Shown here: one piece after another, positions 1-20,210 of the stretch
Layout of the letters: every line of letters starts with the position of its first letter
Numbering within the stretch: position 1 is the first letter of the stretch
DNA from: Variovorax soli NBRC 106424
GTDB taxonomy: Bacteria; Pseudomonadota; Gammaproteobacteria; Burkholderiales; Burkholderiaceae_C
Direction of reading: 5' to 3'
Assembly (NCBI RefSeq): GCF_001591385.1
Contig: NZ_BCUU01000018.1
Coordinates: 1-64,000 of the forward strand
DNA length: 64,000 nucleotides
Program-made: the position numbers and the translations under genes
The notes under the pieces: generated by a model
Told to the model about the DNA's origin: nothing
What the model saw: the letters and a program-made list of their open reading frames with translations, nothing else
The model's database searches: none

Positions 1-2605
1 CGGCGGCGCTGGCGCCGCCAGCGCGCGTGCCGGGCGCCACAGCGCGTTCGGGAGCCGGCTCGGCCGGCCGCGCCGCGCCCTCCAGCCGTTCGGCGAAAAA
101 GCGCAGCACCGGGTCGAAATCGGGCTCGGCGCAAGCCAGGCGCATCAGCTCCAGCGCGAACGGATCCACGTCCAGCAGGCTGCGCATCAGGCCCAGCCGG
201 TGCCCCAGGCGCAGCGCTTCTTCCAGCTGCGCGCGTGCACGCGGCGCGCGCCCGCAGCGATGCTCGACGATGGCCATCTGCAGCCGCAACTGAGCCGTCA
301 GGCGCTGGTCGCCGCGCGTGACGGCGAGATTGACCAGGGGCGCCAGCCGGGTGGCGGCATGCTCCAGGTCGCCATGCGCCAGGTCCCATAGCACTTGGGC
401 GCGCTGCGCCATCAGCGCCACCTCGCCAGAGGCACCGCGCTCGGCACGCGGATGCTTGCGGTGCAACGCCTCCATTCGCCCGCGCAGCGCATCAGCCGCT
501 TCGAAGTCCTGCAACTCCAGGCGGCGCTGGATCTGCGCATGCAGGCTATGCGCCAGCAGCCGGTCCAACCCCAGCTGCTGCGCATGGTCCTCCAACCGCT
601 CCAGGTAGGCAAAGGATTCGAGCCGGCGCCCTTCCAGCCAGTGCGCGCTGGCAAGAACCGTCATCACGCGCAGCATGGAGTCGGGGATGGACAAGCGTTC
701 CAGCACCTCCACCCGCGCTTCCAGCAGGCGCAGCACGCCGGCCATGTCGCCGCGCTCGTAGAAGGCCTCGCCCAGCAGCGCGGCGGCCATGCAGGCGGGC
801 TCGACGAAGGCGCGGCCGCGCGATTCGGACTCATGCAGCACCTCGCCGTAGACGCGCTCGGCCTGGGCGATGTGGCCTTCCAGCGCATGGCTCAGTCCCA
901 CCAGGCAGCGGCCCTGCAGGCTGCCCGAGGCGGTGCCCAGCAGCGGCACGCCGTCGACCAGAAGCGGCGGCGTGTTTGCCTGCACCTGCCGGGCGCGCTC
1001 GTACTCGCCCAGCTGCAGGTAGATCCACGACAGCAGGTTGACGCGGCCGCCCAGTGAAAAGGCCTCGACCGTGTCCGGAATGGCCAGCAGTTGCGGCAGC
1101 AACGCGGTGGCAGCCTCGCTGTCGTCGCGCTGCACGGCCAGGGTGGCGCGCATCAGCGTGAGGATGTGGCGCTGGCGTGGCAGCAGCTCGCCGCTGCGCG
1201 CCAGCAAGCACTCGATGATCTGGGCGCACGCCTGCATCTCGCGCGCGGCCATGAGCAGGCGCAGGCTCCACAGCTGCAGGTCCACGTGGGACTCGATCTG
1301 CGCTTGCGGCAGCTGGCGCAACAGGCCGAACAGGCGCCGCAGCTCGCCGCGCGCCGACAGCGGCTGCGCCGCCTGCTCCACGCGGGCGGCGGCGGTCTCG
1401 GTCTCACCGGCCAGCAGCGCATGTTCCACCGCTTCGTCCAGATAGCCGTGGGCATCGAACCAACGGAAGGCCGCCAGGTGCAGTGCGCGCCGCTCGTCTT
1501 CGGACCGCTGGTCGAAGCGCAGGCGCAGGGTCTCGCGCAGCAGCGGGTGCAAACGGTACCAGCTCTCGCCCTGCTTGCTTTGCACCTGTGCAACGAAGAG
1601 GTCGTCGGCCACCAGGCGTTGCAGCAGACTCGCAGCCTCGGCATCGGCGCCAGTGCGGCCGGTAAGGGCAGCGCACAGCGCGGGGCCGAAACGGTTGCAG
1701 ATGGACGCGCCTACCAGCAGTTCCAACTCGGTCGGCGCCAATTGCGCGATCACTTCGTGTTCGAAGTAGTCGGCGAAGCCGCGCGCGTCCTGCAATTGCG
1801 CGCGCGCCAGTTCCAGCGGCGCCGCGGCGCCCCGGCCGCCGCGCTCCTGGCGCTTCTTCCAGTCCACCGACAGCAGTTGCAGGCCGGCGGCCCAGCCGTC
1901 AGTCAGCTCGTGCAGCAGTTGCGCGTCGCGCTCGCCGATGCCGGCGGCGTGTGCTTGCAGGAAAGCAAGCGACTCCTCGGGCGTGAAGCGCATCTCGCGC
2001 ATGTCCAGTTCCAGCACCAGGCCCTGTGCGCGCAGCCGCGCCAGCGACAACGGCGGCGTGCCGCGCGAAGCCAGCACCAGGTGCAGGTTGGGTGGCGAAA
2101 AGTCCAGCATCCACTGCAGCGCCGACAGGGCCGCGCGCGAACCCAGGTGGTGCAGGTCGTCGAGCATCAGCACCACCTCGCGCGGATGGGCAGAAATGCC
2201 GCGCACCAGCGCCACGATGGCGCGCTCGGCGCTGTCGGCATCCGCGCCGGGGTCGGTCAGCAGGCTGGCCTCGCGCGTCATGGCAGGGTCGATCTGCGCG
2301 AGGCTCGCCAGCAGGCAATCGAGCAGGCGCGTGAGGTCATCGTCGCGCTCCGACAGGCTCAGCCACGCCACGTCGAAGCCCAGCGGCAGCAATGCCTGGC
2401 GCCAGGCGATCAGCAGCGTGGTCTTGCCGCAGCCGCCCTGCCCCTGCAGCACTACGCAGCGCTTGCGCCGCGCCTCCAGCAATTGCGCAATGAGCCGCTC
2501 GCGCCCGGCGATGCGGCGCGGCGCCTTGGGCGGCACCAGCTTCGTATCGAGCAGGCGGTCGGCGACCGCGCTGCGCGGTGGCTGGAGGGATTTGGAAGAG
2601 GCCAT
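1..2605 (-). CDS. MalT-like STAND ATPase / LuxR-family transcriptional regulator, C-terminus beyond left edge
   Basis: About 868 residues are visible before the frame runs off the window. The N-terminal NTPase has a P-loop GQGGCGKT at residues 55-62 and a Walker B run ending LMLDDLHH. A long helical, TPR-like sensor region follows. This is the layout of MalT/AlkS-type regulators, which carry a LuxR-type HTH at the C-terminus; that part is not visible. The ATG at 2605 was chosen because an in-frame TGA lies a few codons upstream. The gene diverges from the acyl-CoA operon starting at 2822, so it probably controls it (inference). Family confidence is high; the ligand is unknown. Confidence 0.85.
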   Translation of the reverse strand, partial: MASSKSLQPPRSAVADRLLDTKLVPPKAPRRIAGRERLIAQLLEARRKRCVVLQGQGGCGKTTLLIAWRQALLPLGFDVAWLSLSERDDDLTRLLDCLLASLAQIDPAMTREASLLTDPGADADSAERAIVALVRGISAHPREVVLMLDDLHHLGSRAALSALQWMLDFSPPNLHLVLASRGTPPLSLARLRAQGLVLELDMREMRFTPEESLAFLQAHAAGIGERDAQLLHELTDGWAAGLQLLSVDWKKRQERGGRGAAAPLELARAQLQDARGFADYFEHEVIAQLAPTELELLVGASICNRFGPALCAALTGRTGADAEAASLLQRLVADDLFVAQVQSKQGESWYRLHPLLRETLRLRFDQRSEDERRALHLAAFRWFDAHGYLDEAVEHALLAGETETAAARVEQAAQPLSARGELRRLFGLLRQLPQAQIESHVDLQLWSLRLLMAAREMQACAQIIECLLARSGELLPRQRHILTLMRATLAVQRDDSEAATALLPQLLAIPDTVEAFSLGGRVNLLSWIYLQLGEYERARQVQANTPPLLVDGVPLLGTASGSLQGRCLVGLSHALEGHIAQAERVYGEVLHESESRGRAFVEPACMAAALLGEAFYERGDMAGVLRLLEARVEVLERLSIPDSMLRVMTVLASAHWLEGRRLESFAYLERLEDHAQQLGLDRLLAHSLHAQIQRRLELQDFEAADALRGRMEALHRKHPRAERGASGEVALMAQRAQVLWDLAHGDLEHAATRLAPLVNLAVTRGDQRLTAQLRLQMAIVEHRCGRAPRARAQLEEALRLGHRLGLMRSLLDVDPFALELMRLACAEPDFDPVLRFFAERLEGAARPAEPAPERAVAPGTRAGGASAA

Positions 2606-2737
2606 GGAAACGGGCAATCAGTGCTCGGCGATGCCCGCCGGGCCTGCGGCATTGTGCGGCAGCAGGCGCCGCCTTGCAGTCGGGACGCACCCGATGCGCA
2701 GCCTGCTCGCATGCATCACACCCACGCGGCCACCCGC

Positions 2738-2754
2738 CTACCCGCAATGGGTAG
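2738..2754. promoter_or_regulatory. Inverted repeat CTACCC-N5-GGGTAG in the divergent promoter region
   Basis: A perfect 6-bp inverted repeat with a 5-nt spacer lies between the MalT-like regulator gene and the acyl-CoA dehydrogenase gene, about 67 bp before the latter's ATG. Its symmetry and position fit a dimeric HTH operator, probably for the divergent regulator. That assignment is inference. Confidence 0.4.
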
Positions 2755-2821
2755 GGCGCAAAAAGCCCCTCGCGAATAACTTTGAGCCATCGACAGCCAC
2801 CCCAACCTAAGGAGTCCCACC

Positions 2822-3964
2822 ATGGAGGTCCAGCGCAGCGTCTACCGCGAAGACCACGAGATGTTTCGCACCACGGCACGCCGCTTCATCGAGCGCGAAT
2901 GCGTGCCCCACACCGACGCCTGGGCCCAAGCCGGCAAGGTGGATCGCGAGCTGTGGCGCAAGGCCGGCCGCGAAGGCCTGCTGTGCCCCATGCTGCCCAC
3001 CGAATACGGCGGCGGCGGCGGCGACTTCGGCCATGCAGCGGTGCTGTCCGAAGAGATGGCGCGCGCTGGCGTGACCGGCCCAACCTTCGGCATGCACTCG
3101 GACATCATCGCCCCCTACATCCAGCGCCTGGGCACGGAAGAGCAGAAGCAGAAGTGGCTGCCGCGCTGCGCCAGCGGCGAGACCATCCTGGCCATTGCCA
3201 TGACCGAGCCGGGTACCGGCAGCGACCTCAAGGGCGTACGCACCACCGCCGTGCGCGAGGGCGACGAATACGTCATCAACGGCAGCAAGACCTTCATCAG
3301 CAACGGCCTGATGGCAGACCTGATCGTGGTGGTGTGCAAGACCGACCCCAAGGGCAGCGGCTCCAAGGCGATGAGCCTGATCCTGGTGGAAGCCGACCGG
3401 GCCGGGTTCCGGCGCGGCCGCAAACTGAACAAGGTGGGTCAGCCCGCGCAGGACACGGCCGAGCTCTTCTTCGACAACGTCCGCGTGCCGGTGAGCAACC
3501 GGTTGGGCGGTGAAGGCGAAGGCATGTACGCGCTGATGCACGAGTTGCCGCAGGAGCGCTTTCTGATCGCGCTGGGCGCGGCCACGCAACTGGAAACCTG
3601 CCTGCAGCACACGCTCGACTACGTGAAGGACCGGCGCGTGTTCGGCCAGACCGTGTGGGACTTCCAGAACACCAAGTTCAAGTTGGCTGACATCAAGGCG
3701 CAGGCGGTGGCCGTGCGCACCATGGTCGACTACTACCTGGGCGAGCACATGCGCCGCCGCCTCACGCTGGAAGAGGCGGCCATCGCCAAGCTCTTTTCCA
3801 CCGAGACGCTGGGCCGCGCCATCGACGAGATGGTGCAGCTGCACGGCGGCTACGGCTACATGCTCGAGTACCCCATTGCCCGCGCCTTCGTCGACATGCG
3901 CGTCACGCGCATCTACGGCGGCACCAGCGAGGTCCAGCGCGAGCTCATCGCCCGCAAGCTCTGA
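2822..3964 (+). CDS. Acyl-CoA dehydrogenase, LCAD/isovaleryl-type active site
   Basis: 380 residues, normal for the family. It should oxidise an acyl-CoA to the 2-enoyl-CoA with FAD. The FAD/substrate segment AMTEPGTGSDL and the C-terminal IYGGTSEVQR are clear. In medium-chain enzymes the catalytic Glu sits in IYEGT; here that position is Gly, while HELPQERF supplies Glu245 where LCAD and isovaleryl-CoA dehydrogenase have their base. A ribosome site AAGGAG lies just before the ATG. It is first in an operon with thiolase, MaoC and SDR genes, so it probably catalyses the first oxidation of a beta-oxidation-like route. The substrate is unknown. Confidence 0.9.
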   Translation: MEVQRSVYREDHEMFRTTARRFIERECVPHTDAWAQAGKVDRELWRKAGREGLLCPMLPTEYGGGGGDFGHAAVLSEEMARAGVTGPTFGMHSDIIAPYIQRLGTEEQKQKWLPRCASGETILAIAMTEPGTGSDLKGVRTTAVREGDEYVINGSKTFISNGLMADLIVVVCKTDPKGSGSKAMSLILVEADRAGFRRGRKLNKVGQPAQDTAELFFDNVRVPVSNRLGGEGEGMYALMHELPQERFLIALGAATQLETCLQHTLDYVKDRRVFGQTVWDFQNTKFKLADIKAQAVAVRTMVDYYLGEHMRRRLTLEEAAIAKLFSTETLGRAIDEMVQLHGGYGYMLEYPIARAFVDMRVTRIYGGTSEVQRELIARKL

Positions 3965-3999
3965 TTCCACCTTCCCCAAAAAACAAGGAGACCCTTCCA

Positions 4000-5184
4000 A
4001 TGACCCGCAATGTGTTCGTCGCCGGCGTCGGCATGATCAAGTTCAAGAAGCCCGGTGCCAGCGAGCCCTACGACGTGATGGGCGAGCAGGCCATCCGCCT
4101 CGCGCTGCAGGATGCCGGCATCGACTACGGCGAAGTGCAGCAGGCCTATGCCGGCTACGTGTACGGCGACTCCACCTCGGGCCAGAAGGCGCTGTATCGC
4201 GTGGGCATGACCGGCATTCCGGTCATCAACGTGAACAACAACTGCGCCACCGGCTCCACTGCGCTGTATCTGGCGCGCCAGGCTGTGCAAAGCGGCGCCG
4301 TGGACGTGGCGCTGGCGGTGGGCTTCGAGCAGATGAGCCCCGGCGCGCTCAAGTCGGTGTGGACCGACCGCGCATCGGCGCTGGAGCGCGCGCTCGACCT
4401 CACCGACGAGCTGGTGGGTCAGCCGGAAATTCCGGCGGCGATTCGCCAGTTCGCGGGGGCCGGCCTGTCGCACATGCAGAAGTACGGTACCAAGCTGGAG
4501 ACCTTCGCCAAGATCCGCGCCAAGGCCAGCCGCCATGCCGCGCGCAACCCGCTGGCGGTGTTCCGCGACGAAGTGACGGCCGAGGAAGTGCTGGCCACGC
4601 CCTGGCTGTGGGAAAACGTGCTGACGCGCCTGATGGCCTGCCCGCCCACCTGCGGCGGCGCTGCCGCGGTGCTGGTGTCGGAAAGCTATGCGAAGAAGCA
4701 CGGGCTGCGCACCGACGTCTTCATTGCCGGCCAGTCGATGAGCACCGACACGCCCAGCACCTACGACTCGCGCGACATGATCCGCGTGGTGGGCTTCGAC
4801 ATGACGCGCGACGCCTCGCGCCTGGCCTACGAGCAGGCCGGCGTGGGCCCTCAGGACGTGGATGTGATCGAGCTGCACGACTGCTTCGCGCAGAACGAGC
4901 TGATCACCTACGAAGGCCTGGGCCTGGCGCCCGAGGGCGAAGGCCCCAAGCTGGTGGACGACGGCGACAACACCTATGGCGGCAAGTGGGTGGTCAACCC
5001 CTCAGGCGGCCTCTTGTCCAAGGGCCACCCGCTGGGCGCCACGGGTCTGGCGCAGTGCTACGAGCTCACGCACCAGCTGCGCGGCACCGCCGAGCAGCGC
5101 CAGGTGGGAGGCGCGCGCATCGCGCTGCAGCACAACCTGGGCCTGGGCGGCGCGGGCGTGGTCACCATCTACCAGAAGGCCTGA
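4000..5184 (+). CDS. SCP-x-type thiolase / lipid-transfer-protein-like acetyl-CoA acetyltransferase
   Basis: 394 residues of thiolase fold. The nucleophilic Cys lies in NNNCATGS, followed by HDCFAQNEL and SKGHPLGATG. The C-terminal motif is HNLGLGGAG instead of the CxGGG of classical thiolases, the pattern of SCP-x and nonspecific lipid-transfer-type thiolases that cleave branched or sterol-like 3-ketoacyl-CoAs. AAGGAG lies before the ATG. It sits between a dehydrogenase and MaoC genes, so it probably catalyses the final C-C cleavage. Some relatives (Ltp2 type) are retro-aldolases, but the retained Cys favours thiolysis. Confidence 0.85.
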   Translation: MTRNVFVAGVGMIKFKKPGASEPYDVMGEQAIRLALQDAGIDYGEVQQAYAGYVYGDSTSGQKALYRVGMTGIPVINVNNNCATGSTALYLARQAVQSGAVDVALAVGFEQMSPGALKSVWTDRASALERALDLTDELVGQPEIPAAIRQFAGAGLSHMQKYGTKLETFAKIRAKASRHAARNPLAVFRDEVTAEEVLATPWLWENVLTRLMACPPTCGGAAAVLVSESYAKKHGLRTDVFIAGQSMSTDTPSTYDSRDMIRVVGFDMTRDASRLAYEQAGVGPQDVDVIELHDCFAQNELITYEGLGLAPEGEGPKLVDDGDNTYGGKWVVNPSGGLLSKGHPLGATGLAQCYELTHQLRGTAEQRQVGGARIALQHNLGLGGAGVVTIYQKA

Positions 5185-5211
5185 GGCCCACAACCTCAAG
5201 GAGCAATTCAG

Positions 5212-5649
5212 ATGCTGGACCCCAAGCACATCGGGCTGAAGCTGCCCGCCTTCCAGGCCACGGCTGAGGCGGGACGGCTGCGATTCTTCGCGCAGGCCAT
5301 TGGCGAAACCAACCCGATCTACATCGACGAATCGGCCGCGCGCGATGCGGGTCACCCGGGCCTGCCGCTGCCGCCCACCTTCCTGTTCTCGCTGGAACTG
5401 GAAAGCCCCAGCTCGGCCTGGCGCGACGACATCGGCATTCGCATCGAACGCATCCTGCACGGCGAGCAGACGTTTGCGTATCACCGCATGGCATACGCGG
5501 GCGACACCTTCACTTTCGAAGGCCGCATCACCGACATCTACAGCAAGAAGGGCGGCGCGCTGAGCTTCGTGGTGAAGGAATCGCGCGTGACCAACCAGCG
5601 CGGCGAGCACGTGGCCGACCTGCGCAGCGTGATCGTGCACAAGAACTAG
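5212..5649 (+). CDS. MaoC-like dehydratase, FAS1-like N-terminal-domain type
   Basis: 145 residues of the single hot-dog type annotated as MaoC N-terminal or FAS1-like dehydratase, with a YIDESAARDAGHPGLPLPPTF segment near residue 40 and a hydratase-like FEGRITDIYSKKG segment. Proteins of this type usually pair with a second small MaoC protein to form an enoyl-CoA hydratase, and the next gene encodes one 17 bp downstream. The likely role is hydration of the enoyl-CoA made by the upstream dehydrogenase. The start has a good AAGGAG site. Confidence 0.8.
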   Translation: MLDPKHIGLKLPAFQATAEAGRLRFFAQAIGETNPIYIDESAARDAGHPGLPLPPTFLFSLELESPSSAWRDDIGIRIERILHGEQTFAYHRMAYAGDTFTFEGRITDIYSKKGGALSFVVKESRVTNQRGEHVADLRSVIVHKN

Positions 5650-5666
5650 AGCCGAAAGACCATCAC

Positions 5667-6071
5667 ATGAACACCACGCTTCAAGTGGGCGACAGCCTGC
5701 CGCCCCTGGCCCTGCCGCCAGTCGACCGCACCATGCTGGCGCTGTTTGCCGGCGCCTCGGGCGACCACAACCGCGTTCACATCGACATCGACTTCGTCCG
5801 CGCTGCCGGCATGCCCGACGTGTTCGCGCACGGCATGTTGTCGATGGCCTGGCTGGGCCGCCTGCTCACGCAGTGGGTGGACCAGCGGCGCATTCGCAGC
5901 TTCGGCGTGCGCTTTACCGGCATCACCCACCTGGGCCACCGCATCACCTGCAGCGGCAAGGTGGTCGAAATCGTCGAGGTGCAGGGCGAACGCCGCGCCA
6001 AGGTGCAGATCCAGACCACCAATCAATACGGGGAACAGAAGATCGTCGGCGACGCCGAGATCGCGCTCTGA
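5667..6071 (+). CDS. MaoC family enoyl-CoA hydratase-like protein
   Basis: 134 residues, a short hot-dog protein. The hydratase motif is visible as FAGASGDHNRVHIDIDFVRAAG, with the Asp/His pair of R-hydratases, followed by FAHGMLSMAWLGRLL. Together with the preceding MaoC-N protein it probably forms a heteromeric enoyl-CoA hydratase acting between dehydrogenase and SDR steps. Genes in this stretch are spaced by tens of bases, consistent with one transcript. Confidence 0.85.
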   Translation: MNTTLQVGDSLPPLALPPVDRTMLALFAGASGDHNRVHIDIDFVRAAGMPDVFAHGMLSMAWLGRLLTQWVDQRRIRSFGVRFTGITHLGHRITCSGKVVEIVEVQGERRAKVQIQTTNQYGEQKIVGDAEIAL

Positions 6072-6117
6072 CAGCCCGCCCACACATCACTTTCATTGCA
6101 CCCAAGGAGACATTGAC

Positions 6118-6945
6118 ATGGCAGGAAAACTCGAAGGCAAGGTCGCCCTCGTCACCGGCTCGGGCCGCGGCATTGGCCAGGCCATTGCCCTCAAGCTCGC
6201 CAGCGAAGGCGCACGCATCGTCGTCAACGACCTGGACGCCGACCCCGCGCAGGAAACTGTGGAGATCATCAAGAAGGCCGGAGGCGAGGCCGTGGCCTGC
6301 GCCGGCAGCGTGAGTGCGCCGGACTTCGCCGAGCGCTACATCAAGACCGCCGTCGACACCTACAAGGGCATCGACATCATCGTCAATAACGCCGGCTTCA
6401 CCTGGGACGACGTGATCCAGAAGATGACGGACGAGCAGTGGTACGCCATCATCGACTGCCACATGACCGCGCCCTTCCGCATCCTGCGCGCGGCCTACCC
6501 CGTCATCAAGGCTCAGGCGCTGACCGATGCCGAGGCGGATCGCGAGGTGTTCCGCAAGGTGGTCAACATCTCCTCGGTGTCGGCCCTGAACGGCAACGCC
6601 GGGCAGATGAACTACTCGTCGGCAAAGGCCGGTGTGATCGGCATGACGCGCGCGCTCAGCCGCGAGTGGGGCCGCTTCAAGGTCAACGTGAACGCGGTGG
6701 CCTTCGGCCTGATCCACACGCGCATGACCAACGCCGATGCGCATGCTGGCGCCACGGTGAAGATCGACGGACGCGACATCCGCGTGGGCCTGAACCCCGA
6801 GCTCTTGAAGATGCACGCCAAGACCAACCCGCTGGGCCGGGGCGGCACGCCCGAGGAAGCAGCCGGCGCCGTGTACCTGTTCTGCACGCCCGAGTCCAAC
6901 TACATCACCGGCCAGACCATCGCGGTGGCAGGCTCGCCCCAGTAA
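6118..6945 (+). CDS. Short-chain dehydrogenase/reductase (FabG/17-beta-HSD4-like)
   Basis: 275 residues. It has the cofactor motif TGSGRGIGQAIA near residue 14, NNAG near 90, and Ser plus YSSAK as the catalytic triad. The acidic residue after the second strand (VNDLDAD) suggests NAD(H). An insertion in the middle (about residues 130-145) resembles the SDR domain of peroxisomal multifunctional enzyme 2. It probably oxidises the 3-hydroxyacyl-CoA produced by the adjacent MaoC pair. The ATG at 6118 follows AAGGAG; the frame is open far upstream, but without a better start. Confidence 0.88.
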   Translation: MAGKLEGKVALVTGSGRGIGQAIALKLASEGARIVVNDLDADPAQETVEIIKKAGGEAVACAGSVSAPDFAERYIKTAVDTYKGIDIIVNNAGFTWDDVIQKMTDEQWYAIIDCHMTAPFRILRAAYPVIKAQALTDAEADREVFRKVVNISSVSALNGNAGQMNYSSAKAGVIGMTRALSREWGRFKVNVNAVAFGLIHTRMTNADAHAGATVKIDGRDIRVGLNPELLKMHAKTNPLGRGGTPEEAAGAVYLFCTPESNYITGQTIAVAGSPQ

Positions 6946-7010
6946 GGCAAGCGAAAAGCGGCGGCCCGCGCCTCGCGCGCGGCGCCATGCCGGGCAAGGA
7001 GACAAGCGCG

Positions 7011-8273
7011 ATGAACGCGAACGACATTCTGATGATGAAGCAAGGGCTGGTGCGCCACGCCGACGGCGTGTACACCGTGGGCGGCCAGGGCAACTCCCTG
7101 GTGGTGGACCTGGGCGAGGGCCTGCTGCTGGTGGACGCCGGACCAGGGGGCGCCATCACACGGCGGATGATTGCGCAGGTGCGCGAGGCCCTGGACAAGC
7201 CGGTGCTGCACATCGTCTATAGCCATGGCCACATGGGCTACAACAACGGCGTGTCGCTGTGGCTGGAAAATGCCGCCGCGCGCGGCGAACCGGTGCCGCA
7301 GGTGCTGGCGCACGAGCGCGTGGCGCATCGCTACGGCCGCTACCGCGAAACCGCTGGCCTGCAGGCCTACACCAACACCCGCCAGTTCCGCACCCCTTAC
7401 CCGGCGCAGCCGCCGGCGCACTGGTTCCGTCTGCCCGACCGCAGCTACGCTGAGCGCCTGTTGATCGTGGGCCGCGACCGCGGCGTGGAGCTGTTGCACG
7501 CCCCCGGTGAAACGGACGATGGCACCGCCGTGTGGATACCGGATTCGCGCACGCTCTACGGCTCCAACGCCTTCATCAAGGCCTGCCCCAACTCGGGCTC
7601 GCCCTACCGCATCCAGCGCGACGTGCTGCGCTGGGCACGAACGCTGGAGATGTTTCTGGCGCTGAAGCCGGCAGTTCTCATTCCCGAATTCGGCAAGCCG
7701 CTGGTGGTCGACGACGAGATTCGCGACGCGCTGAACACACCGGCGCAGGCCATGCGCTACCTGCACGTGGAAGTCGTGCGCCGCATGAATGCCGGCATGG
7801 GCGAGCTGGACATCGTGCATGACGTGTCGCTGCCGCCCGAGCTCTTCAACGGGCCCTTCATGAAGCCGGTGTACGGCTGCGCCGAATACATGATCCGCGA
7901 CATCTGGCGCAGCGAGAACGGCTGGTGGAACCGCAACGCCACCGACCTGCACCCGGCAGCGCCGGCCGACGCCGCCCGCGCCGTGCACGCGGCCCTGCCC
8001 GATGCGCAGCGCGTGCTGGCTCATGCGCAGCAGCTGGCCGACACAGGCCAGACGCAACTTGCCCTGCACGTGGTGGACTTGCTGGCCCTGGCACCAGGCG
8101 ACGAGGTGCCGCTGCGCGCCGCGCGCGAACTCAAGGCCCGCCTGTGCCGCGAACGCGCCGCGCAGCAAAGCTCGGTGGTCTCGCGGCACCTGTACCTGAG
8201 TTCCGCCGACGATCTGCTGGGCCAGCCCATCGGCGGCACCGAAGCACGCAAGGAGGAAACACCATGGGCATGA
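7011..8273 (+). CDS. Metallo-beta-lactamase-fold protein, alkyl-sulfatase-like, degenerate metal site (copy 1)
   Basis: 420 residues. An N-terminal MBL fold (GGQGNSLVVDLG, LLVDAGPGG) is followed by a helical dimerisation domain typical of linear alkyl sulfatases, with ENGWWNRNATDLHPA near residue 310. The expected HxHxDH motif reads H72-G-H74-M-G-Y77: both first His remain, but the Asp and third His are lost. It may be a non-canonical hydrolase or a binding protein. A GGAG site precedes the ATG. Its last 10 bases overlap the next gene, a paralogue, so the two are translationally coupled and probably act together. Confidence 0.8.
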   Translation: MNANDILMMKQGLVRHADGVYTVGGQGNSLVVDLGEGLLLVDAGPGGAITRRMIAQVREALDKPVLHIVYSHGHMGYNNGVSLWLENAAARGEPVPQVLAHERVAHRYGRYRETAGLQAYTNTRQFRTPYPAQPPAHWFRLPDRSYAERLLIVGRDRGVELLHAPGETDDGTAVWIPDSRTLYGSNAFIKACPNSGSPYRIQRDVLRWARTLEMFLALKPAVLIPEFGKPLVVDDEIRDALNTPAQAMRYLHVEVVRRMNAGMGELDIVHDVSLPPELFNGPFMKPVYGCAEYMIRDIWRSENGWWNRNATDLHPAAPADAARAVHAALPDAQRVLAHAQQLADTGQTQLALHVVDLLALAPGDEVPLRAARELKARLCRERAAQQSSVVSRHLYLSSADDLLGQPIGGTEARKEETPWA

Positions 8274-9598
8274 ACGCCATCGCCTCGGCCGATGAAGGCG
8301 CGACCCCACAAGCCAAGTCCAAACCCGCCGCAAGCAGCGGCACCGGCGTTCTCGCGGGTGCGCAGCGCATGCGCGACCTGGTGCCCGGCGTGCATACCCT
8401 CGGCGGCCAAGGCAACACGCTGGCCCTCGAGACCGCGCGCGGCGTGGTGGTTGTGGACGCCGGCCCCGGCGGGCCGGTCACGCGCGGCATGATCGCGCAC
8501 CTGCGCACCATCACCGAACAGCGCGTACTGGCCATCGTCTACAGCCACGGCCACGGCGGCTATAACGCGGGCGTGCCGCTGTGGCTTCAGGACGCGGCCG
8601 AGCGCAACGAACCACCGCCCTTGCTGATAGCGCAGCGCAACCTCGCGCGGCGCTACCGGCGCTACCTGGAAACCGCTGGCCTTCAGGCCTGGCTGAACAG
8701 CCGACAGTTCCGCCGCCCGCTGCCGCCCGCCACGGCGGCCGAGTTGCCGATGCCGCACATGAGCTTCGACGACACGCTGCTCATCGACGGCGGCGACCGC
8801 CAGGTGGAGCTTATCGCCGCACCCTCGGAAACCGACGACGCACTGGCCGTGTGGCTGCCCGCCGAGCGCTTCCTGTACGGCGGCCCGTCCATGATCCGCA
8901 GCATTCCCAACATCGGGACGCCGCTGCGCACGCTGCGCGACCCAATGCGCTGGGCCGCCACGCTGGAGCGTCTGCACGCGCTGCGCCCGGCCATGGTGCT
9001 GCCCGAGTTCGGCCGGCCCATCACCGAAGCGCAGGAGATCGAAGAGGCCTTCCAGATGCCGATCCGCGCCCTGCACTATCTGCGCGGCGCCGTGGTGCAG
9101 CGCATGAACGCAGGCATGAGCGAGCGCGAGATCCTGGCCGACATGCACTACCCGCCTGAGCTCTTCGGCCACAAGTTCATGCGCCCTATCTACGGCAGCC
9201 CCGACTACATCGTGCGCGACATCTGGCGCAGCGAAAACGGCTGGTGGGACCGCAACCCCACGAACCTGCATCCCGCGCCACCAGCCGAGGCCGCGCGCGC
9301 TGTGTTCGAAGCCCTGGGCGACCCCGCCGCCGTGCTGGCCCATGCGCAGGCTCTGGCCGATGCTCGCCAGACCCAGCTGGCCCTGCACGTGGTCGACCTG
9401 CTGGCCGACGCCGACCCGCAGCAGCCGGTGGTGGCAGCGGCGCGCGAACTCAAGGCCAGCCTGTGCGAGGCGCGCTCGCTGCAATGCAGCTCGGTCGTGT
9501 CGCGTCAGATCCTGCGCAGTTGCGCCGAGGACCTGCGCGGGCAGCCGATCGGTGCCACCCGGGCGCAGGACCCGCCCTCGGACTTCTCGTGGGACTGA
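8264..9598 (+). CDS. Metallo-beta-lactamase-fold protein, alkyl-sulfatase-like, degenerate metal site (copy 2)
   Basis: 444 residues, a clear paralogue of the preceding gene along its whole length, with about 25 extra N-terminal residues. The metal motif is H95-G-H97-G-G-Y100, again lacking the Asp and third His of HxHxDH. The dimerisation segment ENGWWDRNPTNLHPA is conserved. Sharing the same substitutions suggests a subfamily that evolved away from sulfatase chemistry before duplicating, and the two could form a heterodimer. Only 2 bp separate its stop from the next ATG. The reaction is unknown. Confidence 0.8.
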   Translation: MGMNAIASADEGATPQAKSKPAASSGTGVLAGAQRMRDLVPGVHTLGGQGNTLALETARGVVVVDAGPGGPVTRGMIAHLRTITEQRVLAIVYSHGHGGYNAGVPLWLQDAAERNEPPPLLIAQRNLARRYRRYLETAGLQAWLNSRQFRRPLPPATAAELPMPHMSFDDTLLIDGGDRQVELIAAPSETDDALAVWLPAERFLYGGPSMIRSIPNIGTPLRTLRDPMRWAATLERLHALRPAMVLPEFGRPITEAQEIEEAFQMPIRALHYLRGAVVQRMNAGMSEREILADMHYPPELFGHKFMRPIYGSPDYIVRDIWRSENGWWDRNPTNLHPAPPAEAARAVFEALGDPAAVLAHAQALADARQTQLALHVVDLLADADPQQPVVAAARELKASLCEARSLQCSSVVSRQILRSCAEDLRGQPIGATRAQDPPSDFSWD

Positions 9599-9600
9599 CG

Positions 9601-10497
9601 ATGACCACGGCACCTCCCATCACGCTGCACCGCGGCCCCGGCGATGGCCTGTCGCTACACTACGCCGCGTGCGGCGAGCGCGGCCGGCCGCTCATCGTCT
9701 TCCTGCACGGCTTTCCGGAATGCTGGTGGGCCTGGGAGCCCTACCTGCGCGAGTTCGGCCGCGACCATTTCGCCATCGCACCGGACACGCGCGGCATCAA
9801 CCTGTCGGACAAGCCCGCCGAGCTGCGCGACTACCGCGCGCCGCGCGTGGCGCAGGACATCGTGGCCCTGGCCGAATTGCTGGGCTACCAAGACTTTCTT
9901 CTGGTGGGGCACGACTGGGGCGCCTCCATTGCCTACTCGCTGGTGCTGGCGCACCCGCAGCGGGTTCGGCGCCTGGCCATTCTCAATGGCGTGCATCCGG
10001 CCGTGTTCGCACGCGAGCTGGCGCAATCGCCAGCGCAACGCAACGCCAGCGACTACATCAACCTGTTTCGCCAACCAGATGCGGCGCAGCTGCTGACTCG
10101 CGATGGTTGCGCCTACCTGCTGGACATGTTCGCCGACGAACCCGGCGGCGCCCTGCCTGCCTGGCTCGACGACGAGGTGCAGGGCCGATACCTCGCCGCG
10201 TGGTCGCAGCCCGGTGCTGTGAATGGCGGCCTGAACTACTACCGCGCCTCGCCTCTGCACCCCGCCCAGTCCGATCCGCGGGCTGCCTTCCTGGCCGAGC
10301 CGGAGAAGCTGCGCGTGCCCATGCCTACGCTGGTGCTGTGGGGCGAGCGCGACCGCTACCTGCTGCCCGGCTGCATCGACAGGCTGGAGGCCTTCGTGCC
10401 TCAGCTGCGAGTGCATCGCCAGCCGCACTGCACGCACTGGATCGCGCACGAGGAACCTGCATGGGTGATGCGCCGCCTGCGCGAGCACTTCGCCTGA
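9601..10497 (+). CDS. Alpha/beta hydrolase, epoxide hydrolase/dehalogenase-like
   Basis: 298 residues with an alpha/beta-hydrolase fold. HGFPE gives the HGxP oxyanion motif. The nucleophile elbow is GHDWGA, with Asp as nucleophile as in soluble epoxide hydrolases and haloalkane dehalogenases. The catalytic His lies in HCTHWIAHE near the C-terminus. An epoxide hydrolase role is more likely than ester hydrolysis because the nucleophile is Asp, not Ser. It sits inside the acyl-CoA operon, so it may process the substrate before CoA activation (inference). Confidence 0.85.
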   Translation: MTTAPPITLHRGPGDGLSLHYAACGERGRPLIVFLHGFPECWWAWEPYLREFGRDHFAIAPDTRGINLSDKPAELRDYRAPRVAQDIVALAELLGYQDFLLVGHDWGASIAYSLVLAHPQRVRRLAILNGVHPAVFARELAQSPAQRNASDYINLFRQPDAAQLLTRDGCAYLLDMFADEPGGALPAWLDDEVQGRYLAAWSQPGAVNGGLNYYRASPLHPAQSDPRAAFLAEPEKLRVPMPTLVLWGERDRYLLPGCIDRLEAFVPQLRVHRQPHCTHWIAHEEPAWVMRRLREHFA

Positions 10498-10522
10498 ACG
10501 CGCATCACGAAAGCAAGAGCAC

Positions 10523-11308
10523 ATGAACACACCCCAACAACTCTTCGGCCTGCAAGGCCGCGTGGCCCTGGTCACCGGCGGCAGCCGCGGCCTGGGCCTG
10601 GAAATCGCCTCTGGCCTGGCTGCCATGGGCGCGCGCCTGGCCATCTCGGCGCGCAAGCCCGACGACCTGGCCGCCGCCCGCGAGCAGTTGCAGGCCCAGG
10701 GCGCCGAAGTGCTGACGGTGGCCAACGACCTGGCTGCGCCCGAAGGCCCGCGCGAGCTGGCCGATGCCGTGCTGGCTCACTACGGCGCGGTGGACGTGCT
10801 GGTCAACAACGCCGGGCGCGGCTGGGCCGAGCCGGCCGAGCAGATGCCGCCCGAACGGCTGCGCCAGCTGATGCGCCTGAACGCCGAGGCACCTTTCGAA
10901 CTCGGCGCGGAGTTGGCACGACGCAGCATGATCCCGCGCGGGTGGGGCCGCGTGATCAATGTGGCTTCCATCCTGGGCCTGCGCACCCGTATGCCCGTCG
11001 GCGGCCGACCGCCCATGGCGGCGTATGCCACCAGCAAGGCGGCAGCGGTGCACATGACGCGCGCTCTGGCAGCCGAGTGGGGCCGCTACGGCATCACCGT
11101 CAACGCCATCGCGCCAGGGCCTTTTCCTTCTCGCATGAACAGCTCGCTGGGCACGGTGGAGGCCGACTTCGTTTCGCGCACGCCAACCGGGCGCCTGGGC
11201 CGCGAGGGCGATCTGAAGGCCGCCGCCATCTTCTTCGCATCCGATGCCGCAGCGCACGTCACGGGCCAGGTGCTGGCTGTCGATGGCGGCATGTCGCTAG
11301 TGATGTAA
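10523..11308 (+). CDS. Short-chain dehydrogenase/reductase
   Basis: 261 residues of classical SDR: TGGSRGLGLEIA near residue 18, NNAG near 95, and YATSKAA as the catalytic Tyr/Lys motif. An Arg after the second strand (ISARKPDD) suggests NADP(H). It ends with the usual TGQVLAVDGGMS. It lies 25 bp after the hydrolase gene and 21 bp before the second dehydrogenase, so it belongs to the same transcript. It is one of two SDRs in the operon and may act on the hydrolase product. Confidence 0.85.
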   Translation: MNTPQQLFGLQGRVALVTGGSRGLGLEIASGLAAMGARLAISARKPDDLAAAREQLQAQGAEVLTVANDLAAPEGPRELADAVLAHYGAVDVLVNNAGRGWAEPAEQMPPERLRQLMRLNAEAPFELGAELARRSMIPRGWGRVINVASILGLRTRMPVGGRPPMAAYATSKAAAVHMTRALAAEWGRYGITVNAIAPGPFPSRMNSSLGTVEADFVSRTPTGRLGREGDLKAAAIFFASDAAAHVTGQVLAVDGGMSLVM

Positions 11309-11329
11309 GCGCTGCTATTGGATTTCCGT

Positions 11330-12526
11330 ATGCACACCAATGCAACTTCCTACGCCGAACGCCTGCGGTCCTTCATGGATCAGCACATCTACCCGAACGA
11401 GGAGCGCTTCTTCCGCGAGACCGAGGAACTCGGCCCCTGGGCCGTCCAGCCGGTGGTGCTGGAACTGCAGGCCCAGGCCCGTGACGCCGGGCTGTGGAAC
11501 CTCTTCATGCCCGACACGCGCTTCGGTGCCGGCCTGGACAACCGCGCCTACGCGCCGCTGTGCGAGATCATGGGCCGCTCGCACCTGGCGCCGGAAGTCT
11601 TCAACTGCAACGCGCCCGACACTGGCAACATGGAGGTGCTGGCGCGTTACGGCACGCCGGGGCAGCAGCAGCAATGGTTGATGCCGCTGCTGCGCGGCGA
11701 GATCCGATCCTGCTTCGCCATGACCGAGCCGCAGGTGGCTTCCAGCGACGCCACCAACATCGAGTCCTCGATCGTGCGCGACGGCGACGACTACGTGATC
11801 AACGGGCGGAAGTGGTACACCACGGGCGCGACCGATCCGCGTTGCCGCATCGCCATCTTCATGGGCAAGAGCGCGCCGGAACACCCGGACCGGCATCGAC
11901 AGCAGTCCATGGTCCTCGTGCCCATGGACACCCCTGGCGTGAAGGTGCTGCGGCCGCTGCCGGTATTCGGCTTCTACGGAGTGCCTGACCGCGCCTCGGA
12001 GGTGCTGTTCGAGAACGTGCGCGTGCCAGCGGCCAACATGCTGCTGGGCGAAGGCCGGGGCTTCGAGATGGCGCAGGGCCGCCTAGGTCCGGGGCGCATC
12101 CACCACTGCATGCGCCTGGTCGGCCTGGCCGAGCGCGCGCTGGAGCGCATGTGCCGCCGCTCGCGCGAGCGCGTCGCCTTCGGCAAGCCGGTAGCCGAGC
12201 AAGGCGTGACGCTGGAGCGCATTGCGCAATCGCGCATCCTGATCGATCAGGCGCGGCTGCTCACGCTCGATGCCGCCCGCGTGATGGACGAACAGGGCAA
12301 CAAGGCCGCCAAGGTGCAAATCGCGATGATCAAGGTGGCGGCCCCAGCCATGGCCTGCCAGGTGATCGACTGGGCCATCCAGGCGCACGGCGGCGGCGGC
12401 ACCGGCAACGACTTCGGACTGGCGCGCAGCTACGCCACCGCACGCCTGCTGCGCCTGGCCGACGGGCCCGACGAAGTGCATCGCAACCAGTTGGCCAAAC
12501 TGGAGCTGGCCAAGTACGCCGGCTGA
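11330..12526 (+). CDS. Acyl-CoA dehydrogenase, ACAD10/ACAD11-like
   Basis: 398 residues from the ATG at 11330; a TTG four codons upstream is possible. The FAD motif [16 protein letters not shown] and NGRKWYTTG are those of the ACAD10/11 group. The usual IYEGT segment reads [12 protein letters not shown], placing Asp where medium-chain enzymes have the Glu base, as in ACAD10-like enzymes. It ends the operon. With the LCAD-type enzyme at the start, the operon has two dehydrogenases of different specificity, suggesting two rounds of oxidation or a substrate with two acyl arms. Confidence 0.85.
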
Positions 12527-12787
12527 GCCGGCACTTGAGGGCTACCCGTGCGGCACAACGCTGCGCGACGAGATCATGCGGGCCAGGCCGTGTCCCGCAG
12601 GTCATGGCTTGCCACTTTGAACGCGGCCACACCCACGGTTAGTGCGGCGGCAGCCTGCACGCGGTCAGGATTGCCGTTGAAGCTCAGAGTGGGGGAATCC
12701 CGCCCTCCCCGGATAGGGTGGGCATTGCGAGGAGGGGGCCAGCTAACTTCACTGCGTTCTCGCAACCACCACAGAGCTCATCCCCTC

Positions 12788-14059
12788 ATGAAAAGATCCC
12801 TCATCGCGCTGGCCGCATTGGCAACTTGCGGCGCGGCGTCTGCGCAATCCTCCGTCACGCTCTTCGGAGTTCTGGACGCAGCTGTCAGCTACTACGAGCA
12901 AACCAGCAAGTTCGACAGCAAAGGCGTGCCCAGCACAACACCACGCCCCGACCTCAAGCAAAGCCAATGGGCGCTGTCCAACAGCAACCTTGCCGGCTCC
13001 CGAATCGGGTTTCGCGGCCAGGAAGACCTGGGTGGAGGCCTTTCCGCCGGCTTCTGGCTCGAAGCGACGCTTTGGAACGATTCAGGAATCGCTGGTCGCG
13101 GGCCACTGCTCTTCGATCGTCGCTCGACTGTGAGCCTGTCCGGGCGGTTCGGTGAGGTGCGCCTGGGCCGTGACTACACCCCGACGTTCTGGAACGATGC
13201 CATCTTCGACCCGTTTACCACTTCCGGTGTCGGAACAAGTCTGATCGCCCAGACCCTGGGGGGCGCCCTGCCAACGTTGACGCTCAATCGTGGCAACTAC
13301 GCGCGCAAGAGCAACTCGGTGGGCTACTTCCTGCCGGCAAGCCTTGGCGGTTTCTACGGCCAGGCGATGTACGCGTTCAACGAGAACGTTCAATCGGATG
13401 CCATCCAGAACGACCCTGCTGCCTCCAACAATTCACGAACGGCACGCTACGTAGGCGGGCGCTTCGGATATGCCAACGGCGCGGTGGATGTCGCAGCGGC
13501 CTATGGAGTTAGCACCATCGGCGACAACTACGTCTTCGGTTTCACCACCAACGTCAACACCTTCAACCTGGGCGCGTCTTACGACTTCGGTCCTGTCAAG
13601 CTGTACGGCGAGTACTCGCAGGTCGATGTCAAGACGGACTTCGCCAATCAGGCGCGCTTTCCGTTCACGCCGACGCTGACGCCCCAACGAGATGTGGACA
13701 GCACGAACTTCCTGGTCGGCGTCAGCGTCCCGGTGGGCCCGGGCATGATCAAGGCGTCGTACGCGCAGGTGAAGGCGAAGTACTCCAGTTTCACGCAGAC
13801 AGGGACGGTGCCATTGGCAACGTCCGAGCCGCAGGCCGACAAGTTCGCCTTGGGCTATGTGTACAACCTGTCCAGGCGAACAGCGCTCTATTCGACCTTC
13901 GCCTATACGAAGAACAAGAATGGAGCGGCCGTCGGCGTGGTCAACGTCTCCTCGGCGGATGTCACCCCTGGCTACACGAACATCGTCAACTCGTCAGCGC
14001 CCGGCTATCGTGCCGACAAGGGCTACGGGTACGACTTCGGCATTCGTCACTCGTTCTAG
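12788..14059 (+). CDS. Gram-negative porin (Burkholderiales trimeric porin family)
   Basis: 423 residues. A Sec signal peptide ends at AASA-QSSVTLFG, and the mature start SSVTLFGVLDA is the hallmark of betaproteobacterial porins. The barrel pattern NSNLAGSRIGFRGQEDLGGGLSAGF follows, and the final residue is Phe after GYDFGIRHS, the outer-membrane assembly signal. It probably forms a 16-stranded outer-membrane channel. It lies 260 bp after the acyl-CoA operon, so it may have its own promoter, but it could serve uptake of the same substrate. It converges with the autotransporter gene. Confidence 0.92.
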   Translation: MKRSLIALAALATCGAASAQSSVTLFGVLDAAVSYYEQTSKFDSKGVPSTTPRPDLKQSQWALSNSNLAGSRIGFRGQEDLGGGLSAGFWLEATLWNDSGIAGRGPLLFDRRSTVSLSGRFGEVRLGRDYTPTFWNDAIFDPFTTSGVGTSLIAQTLGGALPTLTLNRGNYARKSNSVGYFLPASLGGFYGQAMYAFNENVQSDAIQNDPAASNNSRTARYVGGRFGYANGAVDVAAAYGVSTIGDNYVFGFTTNVNTFNLGASYDFGPVKLYGEYSQVDVKTDFANQARFPFTPTLTPQRDVDSTNFLVGVSVPVGPGMIKASYAQVKAKYSSFTQTGTVPLATSEPQADKFALGYVYNLSRRTALYSTFAYTKNKNGAAVGVVNVSSADVTPGYTNIVNSSAPGYRADKGYGYDFGIRHSF

Positions 14060-14069
14060 TGCATCGCGC

Positions 14070-14101
14070 AGCCGGTCCCATCCAGCTATGCTGGGCCGGC
14101 T
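14070..14101 (+). terminator. Hairpin after the porin gene
   Basis: AGCCGG at the left pairs with CCGGCT at the right, and CCAGC pairs with GCTGG around a TAT loop, starting 10 bp after the porin stop. There is no T-run after it, so it may be a weak terminator or an mRNA-end stabiliser. The 280 bp from here to the autotransporter stop hold nothing recognisable. Confidence 0.4.
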
Positions 14102-14383
14102 GGCGGGCGCTATGCTCGGCGCCTAGCCTCGCATGGCAGGTGTTTTCCAAGCGAAAGTGAGCTGCGGGATTGAGGGATTGAGGCAAGAATTCAACGCGCT
14201 CGCTGCGGGGAGCTAGCTTCCTACCGCCTCGAAGAGATTGCCGTCGCTTCACGCAGCGTGAAGATCTCAGAATCGACGACCGATTCCAAGGTGTTGGCAG
14301 ACATAGATCCCTTGCGCGCCGCCGCCATTCCGGCTCCGAAGGCTAGCGAGTGGCTGCAACTTGCGCCGCCGCTATGCGCCTCC

Positions 14384-17300
14384 CTACCATTTGAAGCGAA
14401 CGCCCACGCGGCCGCTCCAGCCGTCGCTGTTGGCGCCGTCCAGCGAGCGGTTGTAGTCCACAGAGCCGAACGCGCTCGCGTTGCGCGCGATTTGCCCTGA
14501 CAGACCGACGCCGACCTGCGCCCAGGTCGAGGCGCCAATCGGTGCACTGAGCGCCACCGGATTAAAGCCCTGCAGGCTCGCGAAGTTGGTTGTCGCGTCG
14601 GAGTCGAAGGCATGCCAGATATTCAGGCGTGCCCAGGCTGTGAGGTCTTGCGCTTCGCCTTGCGCGACGCGGCGCGTCAGTCGCGCGCCGATGCGGCCAT
14701 AGAAGGTGCTGGTGTCGTCGAACGAGATGCGGGCGAAGCTGTCGGCGCTGTCTTCGAGCTTCGTCCATTGATAGACGAGTTGGCCCTGCGGCTCGAGCGC
14801 CCAGCCCGGTGCGAGCACGAAGGGGTAGCCGGCCTCGAGCGAGGCCGCTACGCCCCAGCCATCGGTTTCAAGCTTCTCGGCAAAGATCGACTTCGTCTTG
14901 ACGTTGTCGTAGCGCGTGCCCTGCAGCACGCCATCGACGTACCAGCCCGAAGCGCCCTTGCGCGTCCAGTAGCCGCCAAGCGAGTAGCCGTACATCGATG
15001 CCGTGCCGGCCGAGCCTCCGTAGACGGCATCGACGTTGCTGTCGATGTGGCCCATGGCGATGTATGCGCCCGCGACATCGCTTTGCCCTGAAGCGTCGAC
15101 ACGGCGAAGCAGCTCGATGCCGGTCTGCACACCCGCTTCGTTGTAGTCGTAGGACGGGCCGTTGTGCGTGAAGTCGTCGAGGCGATCGGGGTTGGTGCTG
15201 GCACTGCCATTGCGAGCTTCGCCGCTGGCGCCGAACACGCGCCCCCAGGCGCCCATGCGGCTGAGGCCTTCGCTCGTCGCGGTAACGCTGTCCTCACCTG
15301 CGCGGTCGTGGTACGTGCCGAGCATGGCGATGCCAAGCCGGTTCGCGAGCACGGGGAGGGACATGTCGAGCGGGACTTCGACACGGTAGTTGGGCAACAG
15401 CACTGTTGGCGCGACGGATCGCGGCGAGCCATCGGGTGGTGCAGGCGCCGGAGGCGGTGCCGCAGCTCCTGGAGCCGTCAGCGGCAAGGTCGTTCGCAAA
15501 AACCAGCTCTCGCCATTCGTCGTCCCGCCCCGGACCAACAGGTATTCGTACGCACCGGCCGCCGCCCGCGCGCCCAGCGCAAACGCCGAACCCGCTGTCG
15601 TCGCGCCATTGGCTGCATCGACCACCACGATCCCGTCGCCCGTCGTGAGCGCTCCGCCCCCACCCGCATTGGTGATCTGCAGCGTTGACGCCCCGCTCCC
15701 ACTGCCGCCGTTGATGACCAGCTTGTCGGACGGCGAGTTGTCGACCCCCAGGACAGTGTTGAGCGCCACACGGCTGCCGGGCGCGCCGACATAGCTGTTG
15801 ACGGTCAGCGTATTGCCGGGCGTTCCGCTGACGGCGCGGACCTGCGCCAGTCCCGCGTTTTGCAGCGTGCCATTGATCGTGAAGCCGCCGTTGCCGCCAT
15901 CCAAGATCGCTGGCTTGGCAAGCGACTGCACGCCCGGCTTGCTGGACGCGGTGGCTGCAGGGGGGGCCACTGTCGCGCTCGCAATCGCATTGGCCACCTT
16001 CAACACACCGTTGTTCACCACGTCGCCGGTCACGCTGCCGTAGCCACCCAGTGTCGCGCCCGGGTTGACCAGGACCGTGCCGCCGCCACTCAGCGCGGCG
16101 CCGGGGCTGGTCGAGTCTCCGACCACGAGCGTTCCCGCACTCACTGTCGTACCGCCGCCATACGTGCTGGCCCCCTGCAGAATCAATGTTCCTGCGCCTG
16201 CCTTGGTCAGGGCGCCAGCACCCGTCATGCCTTGCTCGACGATGGCTTCAAAGCCTTGGGTGTCCAGCGTGCCCCCGCCGGCCTCGATCGAGACCGGCCG
16301 CGTCGCAGACAACTCGAAGCTGCCCAGCCATTGCAGCGTGCCGCCGTTGAAAGTCACGCCGCCCGTGGGCGCGCCGAGGACGTTGTCGGCCGGCATGGCC
16401 AGCACGCCCTGCGCGAGCAGGGTGCCGCCCGCGTAGGTGTTGCCGCCAGCCGACGAGGGTGCGAGCGTTACCGTGCCCGTGCCCTGCTGGACGACCCGCC
16501 CGGTGCCGGAGATCAAGCCGCTGAAGGTGAGCACATCGGAGCGGTTGAATGCCAGCGTGCCGTTGTTCGACACATCCCCGATGAAGCTTCCCGTCGTGCC
16601 GCCATCGCCCAATTGAAGGGTGCCGCCGTTGATGGAGGTGTTGCCGGTGTAGGTGTTGCTGCCGGTGAGAACGAGCGTTCCGGCATCGGTCTTGTCGAGG
16701 CCGCCGCTGCCCTGGATCACCGCACCGATCGTGGCGGTCATCGCGGCGCCCGCGGCAGTGCCGTCACCCACGCGGATGATGGTGTCGGGCGTCGTCGTCG
16801 TCAGCGGCTGGCCGATGACCGTGTAGCCGTCGACTGCGAACTGGGCGCCGCTGAAAGTCACCGCGCCTGCGCTGTTGTCCACCGTGACGATGCCGGGCGT
16901 GCCCTGGAAGACCGCGAAGCCGTTAGGCTGCCAAGATGCATTCACCGTGCCGGTGCCCTCGGTCCACGCGTCGATCGCGGGCGTTGCCAGCCATGTGCCC
17001 GAGCCGCCGTTCACGGTGGCGTTGTTGAACAGCGCGCTGTTGTTCCCGTCCCAGAAGTTCAGCATCAGGCCCTGCGTGTTGACCAGGTTCACCTGATTCG
17101 CCACGGAGGTCTGCACGAAGAACGGACCGCCGGCGGGCATCGCGCCGAGGTCGAGCCCCTGGTTGTTCAAGGTGCCGCCGTAGTTGATCAACCGGTAGAC
17201 GCCCGGACCGAAGTTGCCGCCGGCCGGCTGCGTGACGTTCAAGGTGCCGTCGAGCGAGAGATTGCCGCCCACCACGCTCAGGTCGTTGAACGCGCCGCCC

Positions 17301-19873: not shown

Positions 19874-20210
19874 GGTCGCTGGCACTCCTTGTCGTACACC
19901 TTCGCAATCCCGTCGGATTCCTGAATCGCTGCCGCGGCGTTTCTATCATCCCCACTCGCGATTGCGCAAGGGGCGGCATTTCCTACGAATTAGGGTTCAG
20001 TTCGCAGGGCGATCCCCCGCCGTTGTCGACACGATAGAGACGTACTTCACCGTCGACTGCAGCTTGGAAACGTCGGCTCAGGGCACGAAGCCGCAGATTC
20101 GGCCTGCCCTCCCCTTCAGCGGCTTTCGCTGCGGAGCCGTCTTGAACTGCAGTAGCCAGAGAGCCGAAACCGGCCGGTCGGCGGCAATTGCCCATCGTGG
20201 ATACCATACT
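19874..20210. other. Upstream region of the autotransporter gene
   Basis: No gene was recognised in these 337 bases. They should hold the autotransporter promoter, but no confident -35/-10 pair or operator was seen. Confidence 0.4.

Follow-up and report, generated by a model that had tools for sequence, protein, structure and literature searches.

Metallo-beta-lactamase (MBL) proteins are recognized by a hallmark motif, HxHxDH. The window (the whole 64,000-nucleotide stretch of DNA analyzed here) contains two overlapping genes, A and B, for MBL proteins with a different motif. The locus raises the question of whether such proteins bind two metal ions, one, or none. It also raises the question of whether they are sulfatases, decaying genes, or enzymes of another kind.

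Gene pair A/B

The genes were assigned by Pfam, alignment, and tree.

7011..8273, plus strand: gene A, MBL domain and alkylsulfatase dimerization domain, motif HGHMGY, 420 aa
8264..9598, plus strand: gene B, paralogue of A, motif HGHGGY, 444 aa

A and B are 56% identical over 395 aligned positions. Both contain an MBL domain followed by a dimerization domain, which is the domain order of type III alkylsulfatases, the detergent-cleaving sulfatases. The Pfam matches to Lactamase_B were 3.1e-13 for A and 1.9e-8 for B, and those to Alkyl_sulf_dimr were 2.3e-31 and 4.8e-36. The original prediction had proposed that the genes overlap, that the sulfatase dimerization domain is retained, and that HGH-M/G-GY replaces HxHxDH in both paralogues. 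All of this was borne out: the overlap is 10 nt, Alkyl_sulf_dimr matches both proteins, and the motifs are those listed above. The C-terminal SCP-2-like domain Alkyl_sulf_C gave no Pfam match in A or B at E 0.001. NCBIfam returned only matches far under their cut-offs.

Metal-site residues

A profile search recovered 28 family members at 581 bits or more, and every other protein of the compared loci scored 280 bits or less. Most members are of type A, B, or C. PMC5426288 gives the ligands of SdsAP as Asp196, His197, His367, and Glu322 for one zinc and as His192, His194, Glu303, and Glu322 for the other. The corresponding codons in A and B are as follows, with those of A placed by alignment (E167, N186, and E226-F227 by alignment to SdsA1 and the family alignment) and those of B by translation and alignment.

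7224..7241, plus strand: A, H72-G-H74-M-G76-Y77, both His retained, Asp and third His substituted
7509..7511, plus strand: A, E167, third ligand of the kept site (SdsA1 Glu280)
7566..7568, plus strand: A, N186, at the bridging-acid position (SdsA1 Glu299)
7686..7691, plus strand: A, E226-F227, with F227 at the last ligand His (SdsA1 His344)
8546..8563, plus strand: B, HGHGGY, H95 to Y100
8828..8830, plus strand: B, E189, third ligand of the kept site

In the alignment of A to SdsA1, H72 and H74 fall on the first two His, and G76 and Y77 fall on the Asp and His. E167 falls on Glu280, N186 on Glu299, and F227 on His344. These equivalences were counted from the printed alignment. H72, H74, G76, Y77, E167, E226, and F227 were present in all 28 aligned members, and position 186 was N, C, A, or P. 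The canonical relatives (17 proteins, a set that omits those of L006, L029, and L030) had His, His, Asp, His, Glu, and the last His in every case, with Asp or Glu at position 186. The family thus lacks the complete ligand set for the two zincs of a type III alkylsulfatase, with Asp, His, His, and the bridging Glu lost in 28/28. The original prediction had overlooked the losses at the last ligand His and the bridging acid, and it had also missed that E167 is kept. Judged by these alignments, the family has lost the Asp/His/His metal site and retains every residue of the His/His/Glu site.

The hallmark HxHxDH is replaced by HGHxGY in 40/40 members, so the motif is not a product of chance. This count includes the 28 aligned members and 12 more (two from L078, nearly identical to those of L011, one from L079, and those of L092-L100). 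PMC7785958 describes members of the MBL superfamily with altered motifs. L029 (1126-2856, minus strand) and L030 (1123-3009, minus strand) depart from the normal metal site in a way of their own. These encode an MBL and dimerization-type variant with HSHYAH for HxHxDH and SDSDD for SETDD.

Origin and distribution

The phylogeny of motif-bearing MBL proteins, which the original prediction had proposed as a check, returned a single clade and one ancestral event. The tree contained 47 proteins and was computed without the ten motif columns. It included L029 and L030 and omitted L006 (an MBL protein at 59 bits). All members formed one branch (100/99). A (100/99) and B (98/93) were sister groups within it, adjoined by L054, a lone protein whose source belongs to a different order of the class. 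The other half of the branch held type C and two Phenylobacterium proteins. Because the A/B split lies inside this one branch, the losses trace to one event that predates the A/B duplication, and the tree rules out that the two genes lost these residues independently. The shared ancestor also gave rise to the single-copy type C, so the A/B pairing is no evidence for the change. The original prediction had taken the identical losses in two copies as a sign of a new activity. A changed activity is favored by the coordinated loss of the site, the new invariant residues, and purifying selection, and the supposed independence of the losses falls away with the single ancestor.

The genome that contains the window encodes five proteins with the dimerization domain. 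Two of them carry the canonical motif, and the other three are A, B, and one type C (on contig C95). Members at clade-level scores occurred in at least 5/349 genomes of the order, 7/200 of the family, 6/398 of the phylum, and 12/61 of the genus, as counted from a limited number of candidates scored per genome. A protein of G1281 (278 bits) was not counted as a member. In a search with B against 369 genomes of the class, the clade was among the scored candidates only in the genome of the window. Adjacent members, two per genome, occurred in two genomes of the genus sample (that of the window and G1287). In each of two type C matches (G1262 and G1263), the matched stretch contained one stop codon. 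No paper dealing with the A/B/C family was found in the open-licence literature, as judged by title and the start of the abstract.

Selection and family-specific residues

The dN/dS values were 0.11-0.33 in 20 orthologue pairs (five A and five B, all pairs), from a simple counting method with partly saturated synonymous sites. By this measure, A and B are both under purifying selection. A contains 18 His and Cys residues, four of which (H72, H74, H314, and H353) are invariant in the family. Of the 16 other than H72 and H74, 14 vary. Every member has Q26, M53, N78, E226, E302, and R308, which were found in 0/17 canonical relatives. H314 is also fixed and was found in 1/17. D42, N194, R203, N260, and Y288 are fixed in the canonical set and the family alike. 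This pattern suggests an active site that was remodeled, not one that died, and it does not look like gene decay. The model of A has pLDDT below 50 at 194-201 and 307-314, where several of the family-specific residues lie.

Genomic neighborhoods

A and B lie within a run of ten genes on the plus strand (2822 to 12526), whose products are of the beta-oxidation type. The other eight are listed here.

2822..3964, plus strand: acyl-CoA dehydrogenase, first gene of the run
4000..5184, plus strand: thiolase-like protein
5212-5649, plus strand: FAS1-type dehydratase
5667-6071, plus strand: MaoC-like protein
6118..6945, plus strand: short-chain dehydrogenase (SDR)
9601..10497, plus strand: alpha/beta hydrolase, 2 nt after B; its nearest solved sequences are soluble epoxide hydrolases
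10523-11308, plus strand: short-chain dehydrogenase (SDR)
11330-12526, plus strand: acyl-CoA dehydrogenase

The original prediction had placed the pair in an acyl-CoA operon. This describes the window well, but it does not describe the family, since the relatives are mostly in another kind of cluster. The thiolase-like, FAS1-type, and MaoC proteins had no match around eight related loci (E 1e-8), and an acyl-CoA operon as the usual setting was not borne out. Relatives of the acyl-CoA dehydrogenase and SDR recur in some of those eight loci. The alpha/beta hydrolase is beside A/B in the window and in four other loci (L010, L011, L012, and L078). TctC, DUF1254, and the CoA ligase had no match in bases 1-18000 of the window. 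The minus strand of the window also contains an open frame of 1833 aa (14384-19885) that appears autotransporter-like with a repetitive passenger, judged by translation only.

Neighbors of relatives were sought by tblastn around 23 loci (E 1e-9, at least 40% of the query). These loci are related by descent. TctC was found in 18 of the 21 loci outside Phenylobacterium, DUF1254/1214 in 14, and an NDP-forming CoA ligase in 12. The two Phenylobacterium loci had none of the listed neighbors by tblastn. TctC, DUF1254/1214, and the ligase were all present in 9/9 further type C loci of the genus. The gene order in these nine was porin, ligase, TctC, two DUF1254/1214, type C, and TctC, on either strand. 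This conserved cluster was seen in L064 (contig C95 of the window's own genome), L067, L068, L069, L071, L073, and L092-L100. In L064, the start of the cluster is cut by the contig end, and a porin is on the other side.

The background in the same genome (5.6 Mb) was 92 TctC, 8 DUF1254, and 5 CoA-ligase-domain matches. The 92 TctC substrate-binding-protein matches represent a large organic-acid uptake repertoire. With that many, a random 16-kb stretch would often hold one, so TctC is weak evidence. One is also beside the canonical L075, and TctC was played down as an indicator for both reasons. The low background makes DUF1254/1214 and the ligase the telling neighbors. L075 also neighbors IclR and CoA-transferase genes, and the setting is thus not unique to the family.

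On plasmid pBB2 of Cupriavidus necator N-1, the genes in order are an SDR, a CoA ligase, three TctC, A, B, an alpha/beta hydrolase, and an IclR regulator. In L013 (Limnohabitans sp. G3-2), a full-length sulfatase gene with the canonical motif (10663-12651, plus strand) directly follows the A/B pair, and two DUF1254/1214 matches lie farther downstream of it. The search of the open-licence literature found no paper on DUF1254 together with DUF1214. From the neighbors, what the relatives have in common would be that an organic acid is taken up and degraded through CoA-linked steps.

Pairing of A and B

A and B adjoin on the same strand in 7/9 loci that contain A. These are the window, L009 (the Variovorax dokdonensis locus), L010, L011, L013, L014, and L078. 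Such a pair could be an obligate heterodimer in which the working site is made by the two proteins together and not by each one. The adjacency and the similar selection on A and B point this way, and a heterodimer would be compatible with the mononuclear enzyme proposed below. Type C had no A or B partner in 20/20 stretches, which argues against it. In L012, a TctC gene separates A from B, which are encoded on different strands. Genome G240 (L074) showed only A among the 5 of 19 candidates scored. We regard the obligate heterodimer as doubtful. An A/B heterodimer is possible as judged from gene arrangement, and it is not required of the family. A and B may be old duplicates kept together, either as parts of a heteromer or as two enzymes that differ in specificity.

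Metal content and activity

Our main reading, with a probability of roughly 0.55, places A and B in an MBL subfamily that would hold one metal ion at a His-His-Glu site and act in CoA-linked organic-acid catabolism. They would be neither ordinary sulfatases nor decaying genes. One ancestral change replaced Asp with Gly, His with Tyr, the last His with Phe, and the bridging acid with N, C, A, or P. It left in place the residues of the "histidine" site (H72, H74, and E167), which would bind one metal ion. This site, the new Y77, N78, E226, E302, R308, and H314, and the kept N194, R203, N260, and Y288 may together form the catalytic center. The reaction may be a hydrolysis, or a step related to one, with an organic acid or its CoA ester as substrate. 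The ligand pattern, the single origin, the purifying selection, the missing C-terminal domain, and the neighborhoods are what the sequences themselves provide. The low pLDDT at family-specific residues, the abundance of TctC, the shared descent of the loci, a window with no TctC, DUF1254, or ligase in bases 1-18000, the bare Phenylobacterium loci, and the setting of L075 count against this reading.

The protein could instead be free of metal, as a pseudoenzyme or as an MBL pocket in which His-His-Glu serve as acid-base or structural residues. Every member has lost four ligand positions, and metal-free MBL precedents are described in PMC7785958 (class-C type-2 flavodiiron proteins). A metal-free protein does not fit well with H72, H74, and E167 that are invariant in 28/28 members while most other His and Cys of A vary, nor with the new charged residues fixed in the family or the low dN/dS. 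We consider it unlikely. One metal is favored over none in this alignment because H72, H74, and E167 never vary in the 28 members. A rebuilt di-metal site, in which E226 or another new acidic or His residue holds the second metal, would account for an E226 that is invariant in 28/28 and absent from 17/17 canonical relatives, and E302 and H314 are likewise new. However, the gapless alignment puts Phe and not Glu at the ligand His. E226 as a like-for-like substitute for the lost His is disfavored, with Phe at that position in 28/28. The Asp and third His are Gly and Tyr, with no equivalent there, and a second metal appears improbable.

Least likely is that the proteins are still alkylsulfatases that act on some sulfate ester with one zinc, and we give this very little credence. 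The fold and the dimerization domain are retained, and N194, R203, N260, and Y288 are held in common with the sulfatases. These proteins lack the binuclear site and the C-terminal domain, and they have no His at the proton-donor position of Pisa1. The canonical full-length sulfatase gene that follows B in L013 speaks for this reading, but such a gene was seen beside the pair in that locus only.

The mononuclear reading also has a bolder form, which we think rather unlikely. Here the family would be a new kind of mononuclear MBL enzyme, with a His-His-Glu triad like the non-haem iron facial triad, Fe(II) or Zn(II), and a reaction new to this branch. It would act in an uncharacterized organic-acid pathway with DUF1254/1214, and A/B would be a two-subunit version.

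Comparison with known systems

A and B were compared with the type III alkylsulfatases SdsA1 (2cfu and 2cfz), Pisa1 (2yhe), SdsAP (4nur), and YjcS (4pdx). Pisa1, SdsA1, and their kin are the closest solved relatives by sequence. The MBL alpha-beta-beta-alpha fold was found in both A and B by Pfam, models, and structure matches. Model A had a mean pLDDT of 84.3. Its best Foldseek match was SdsA1 2cfz (E 1.1e-20, TM-score 0.69 by query length, rmsd 5.7). Model B had a mean pLDDT of 81.3 and matched Pisa1 with Z 25.0 and rmsd 3.8 over 385 aligned residues. A and B share with these enzymes the fold, the dimerization domain, His-His-Glu, and the residues at N194, R203, N260, and Y288. They differ in the loss of one metal site, the absence of Alkyl_sulf_C, and an identity of about 20%. 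Unlike A and B, the full-length sulfatase of L013 contains Alkyl_sulf_C. The proton-donor His of Pisa1, which we take to be His317 (the number agrees with the count in our alignment), is at a position that is Pro in B, and P193 is invariant in 21/21. In Pisa1, a His donates a proton to the leaving sulfate, according to PMC3920027.

Model B had three structural matches that were effectively tied. These were Pisa1, 8d2z, and chlorothalonil dehalogenase Chd. The best score was that of 8d2z, an MBL protein of Burkholderia cenocepacia (Z 25.7). It differs in that its chain has 306 residues and its match covers the MBL part (28-330 of model B). Chd (6UXU; Z 25.1) is an MBL-fold protein with one catalytic metal per subunit. 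PMC12784990 places its zinc on Asp116, His117, His257, and Asn216. On that account, the zinc site of Chd is the site lost in A and B, where the positions are Gly, Tyr, and Phe. The family is the reverse of Chd: one ancestral change eliminated a metal site across a whole subfamily, and strict selection preserves the residues of the other. As a natural experiment, it could show whether catalysis is possible with the "histidine" site alone.

The closest canonical relatives by score and tree are shorter MBL and dimerization proteins with an intact HGHxDH (L027/L075 and L080, Terrarubrum). They are of similar length to A and B, with no extra C-terminal domain seen, but they have all six ligand positions. 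The records of C. necator N-1 name members of the family after the dimerization domain, and this invites a sulfatase reading. From the sequence comparisons, they are most likely working mononuclear metalloenzymes of CoA-linked organic-acid catabolism. The family ties an uncharacterized enzyme to the conserved DUF1254/1214 cluster, and finding the substrate could inform both. On the alignments and the tree, the family is best described as a subfamily of single origin in which one of two metal sites was lost while the residues of the other were retained.
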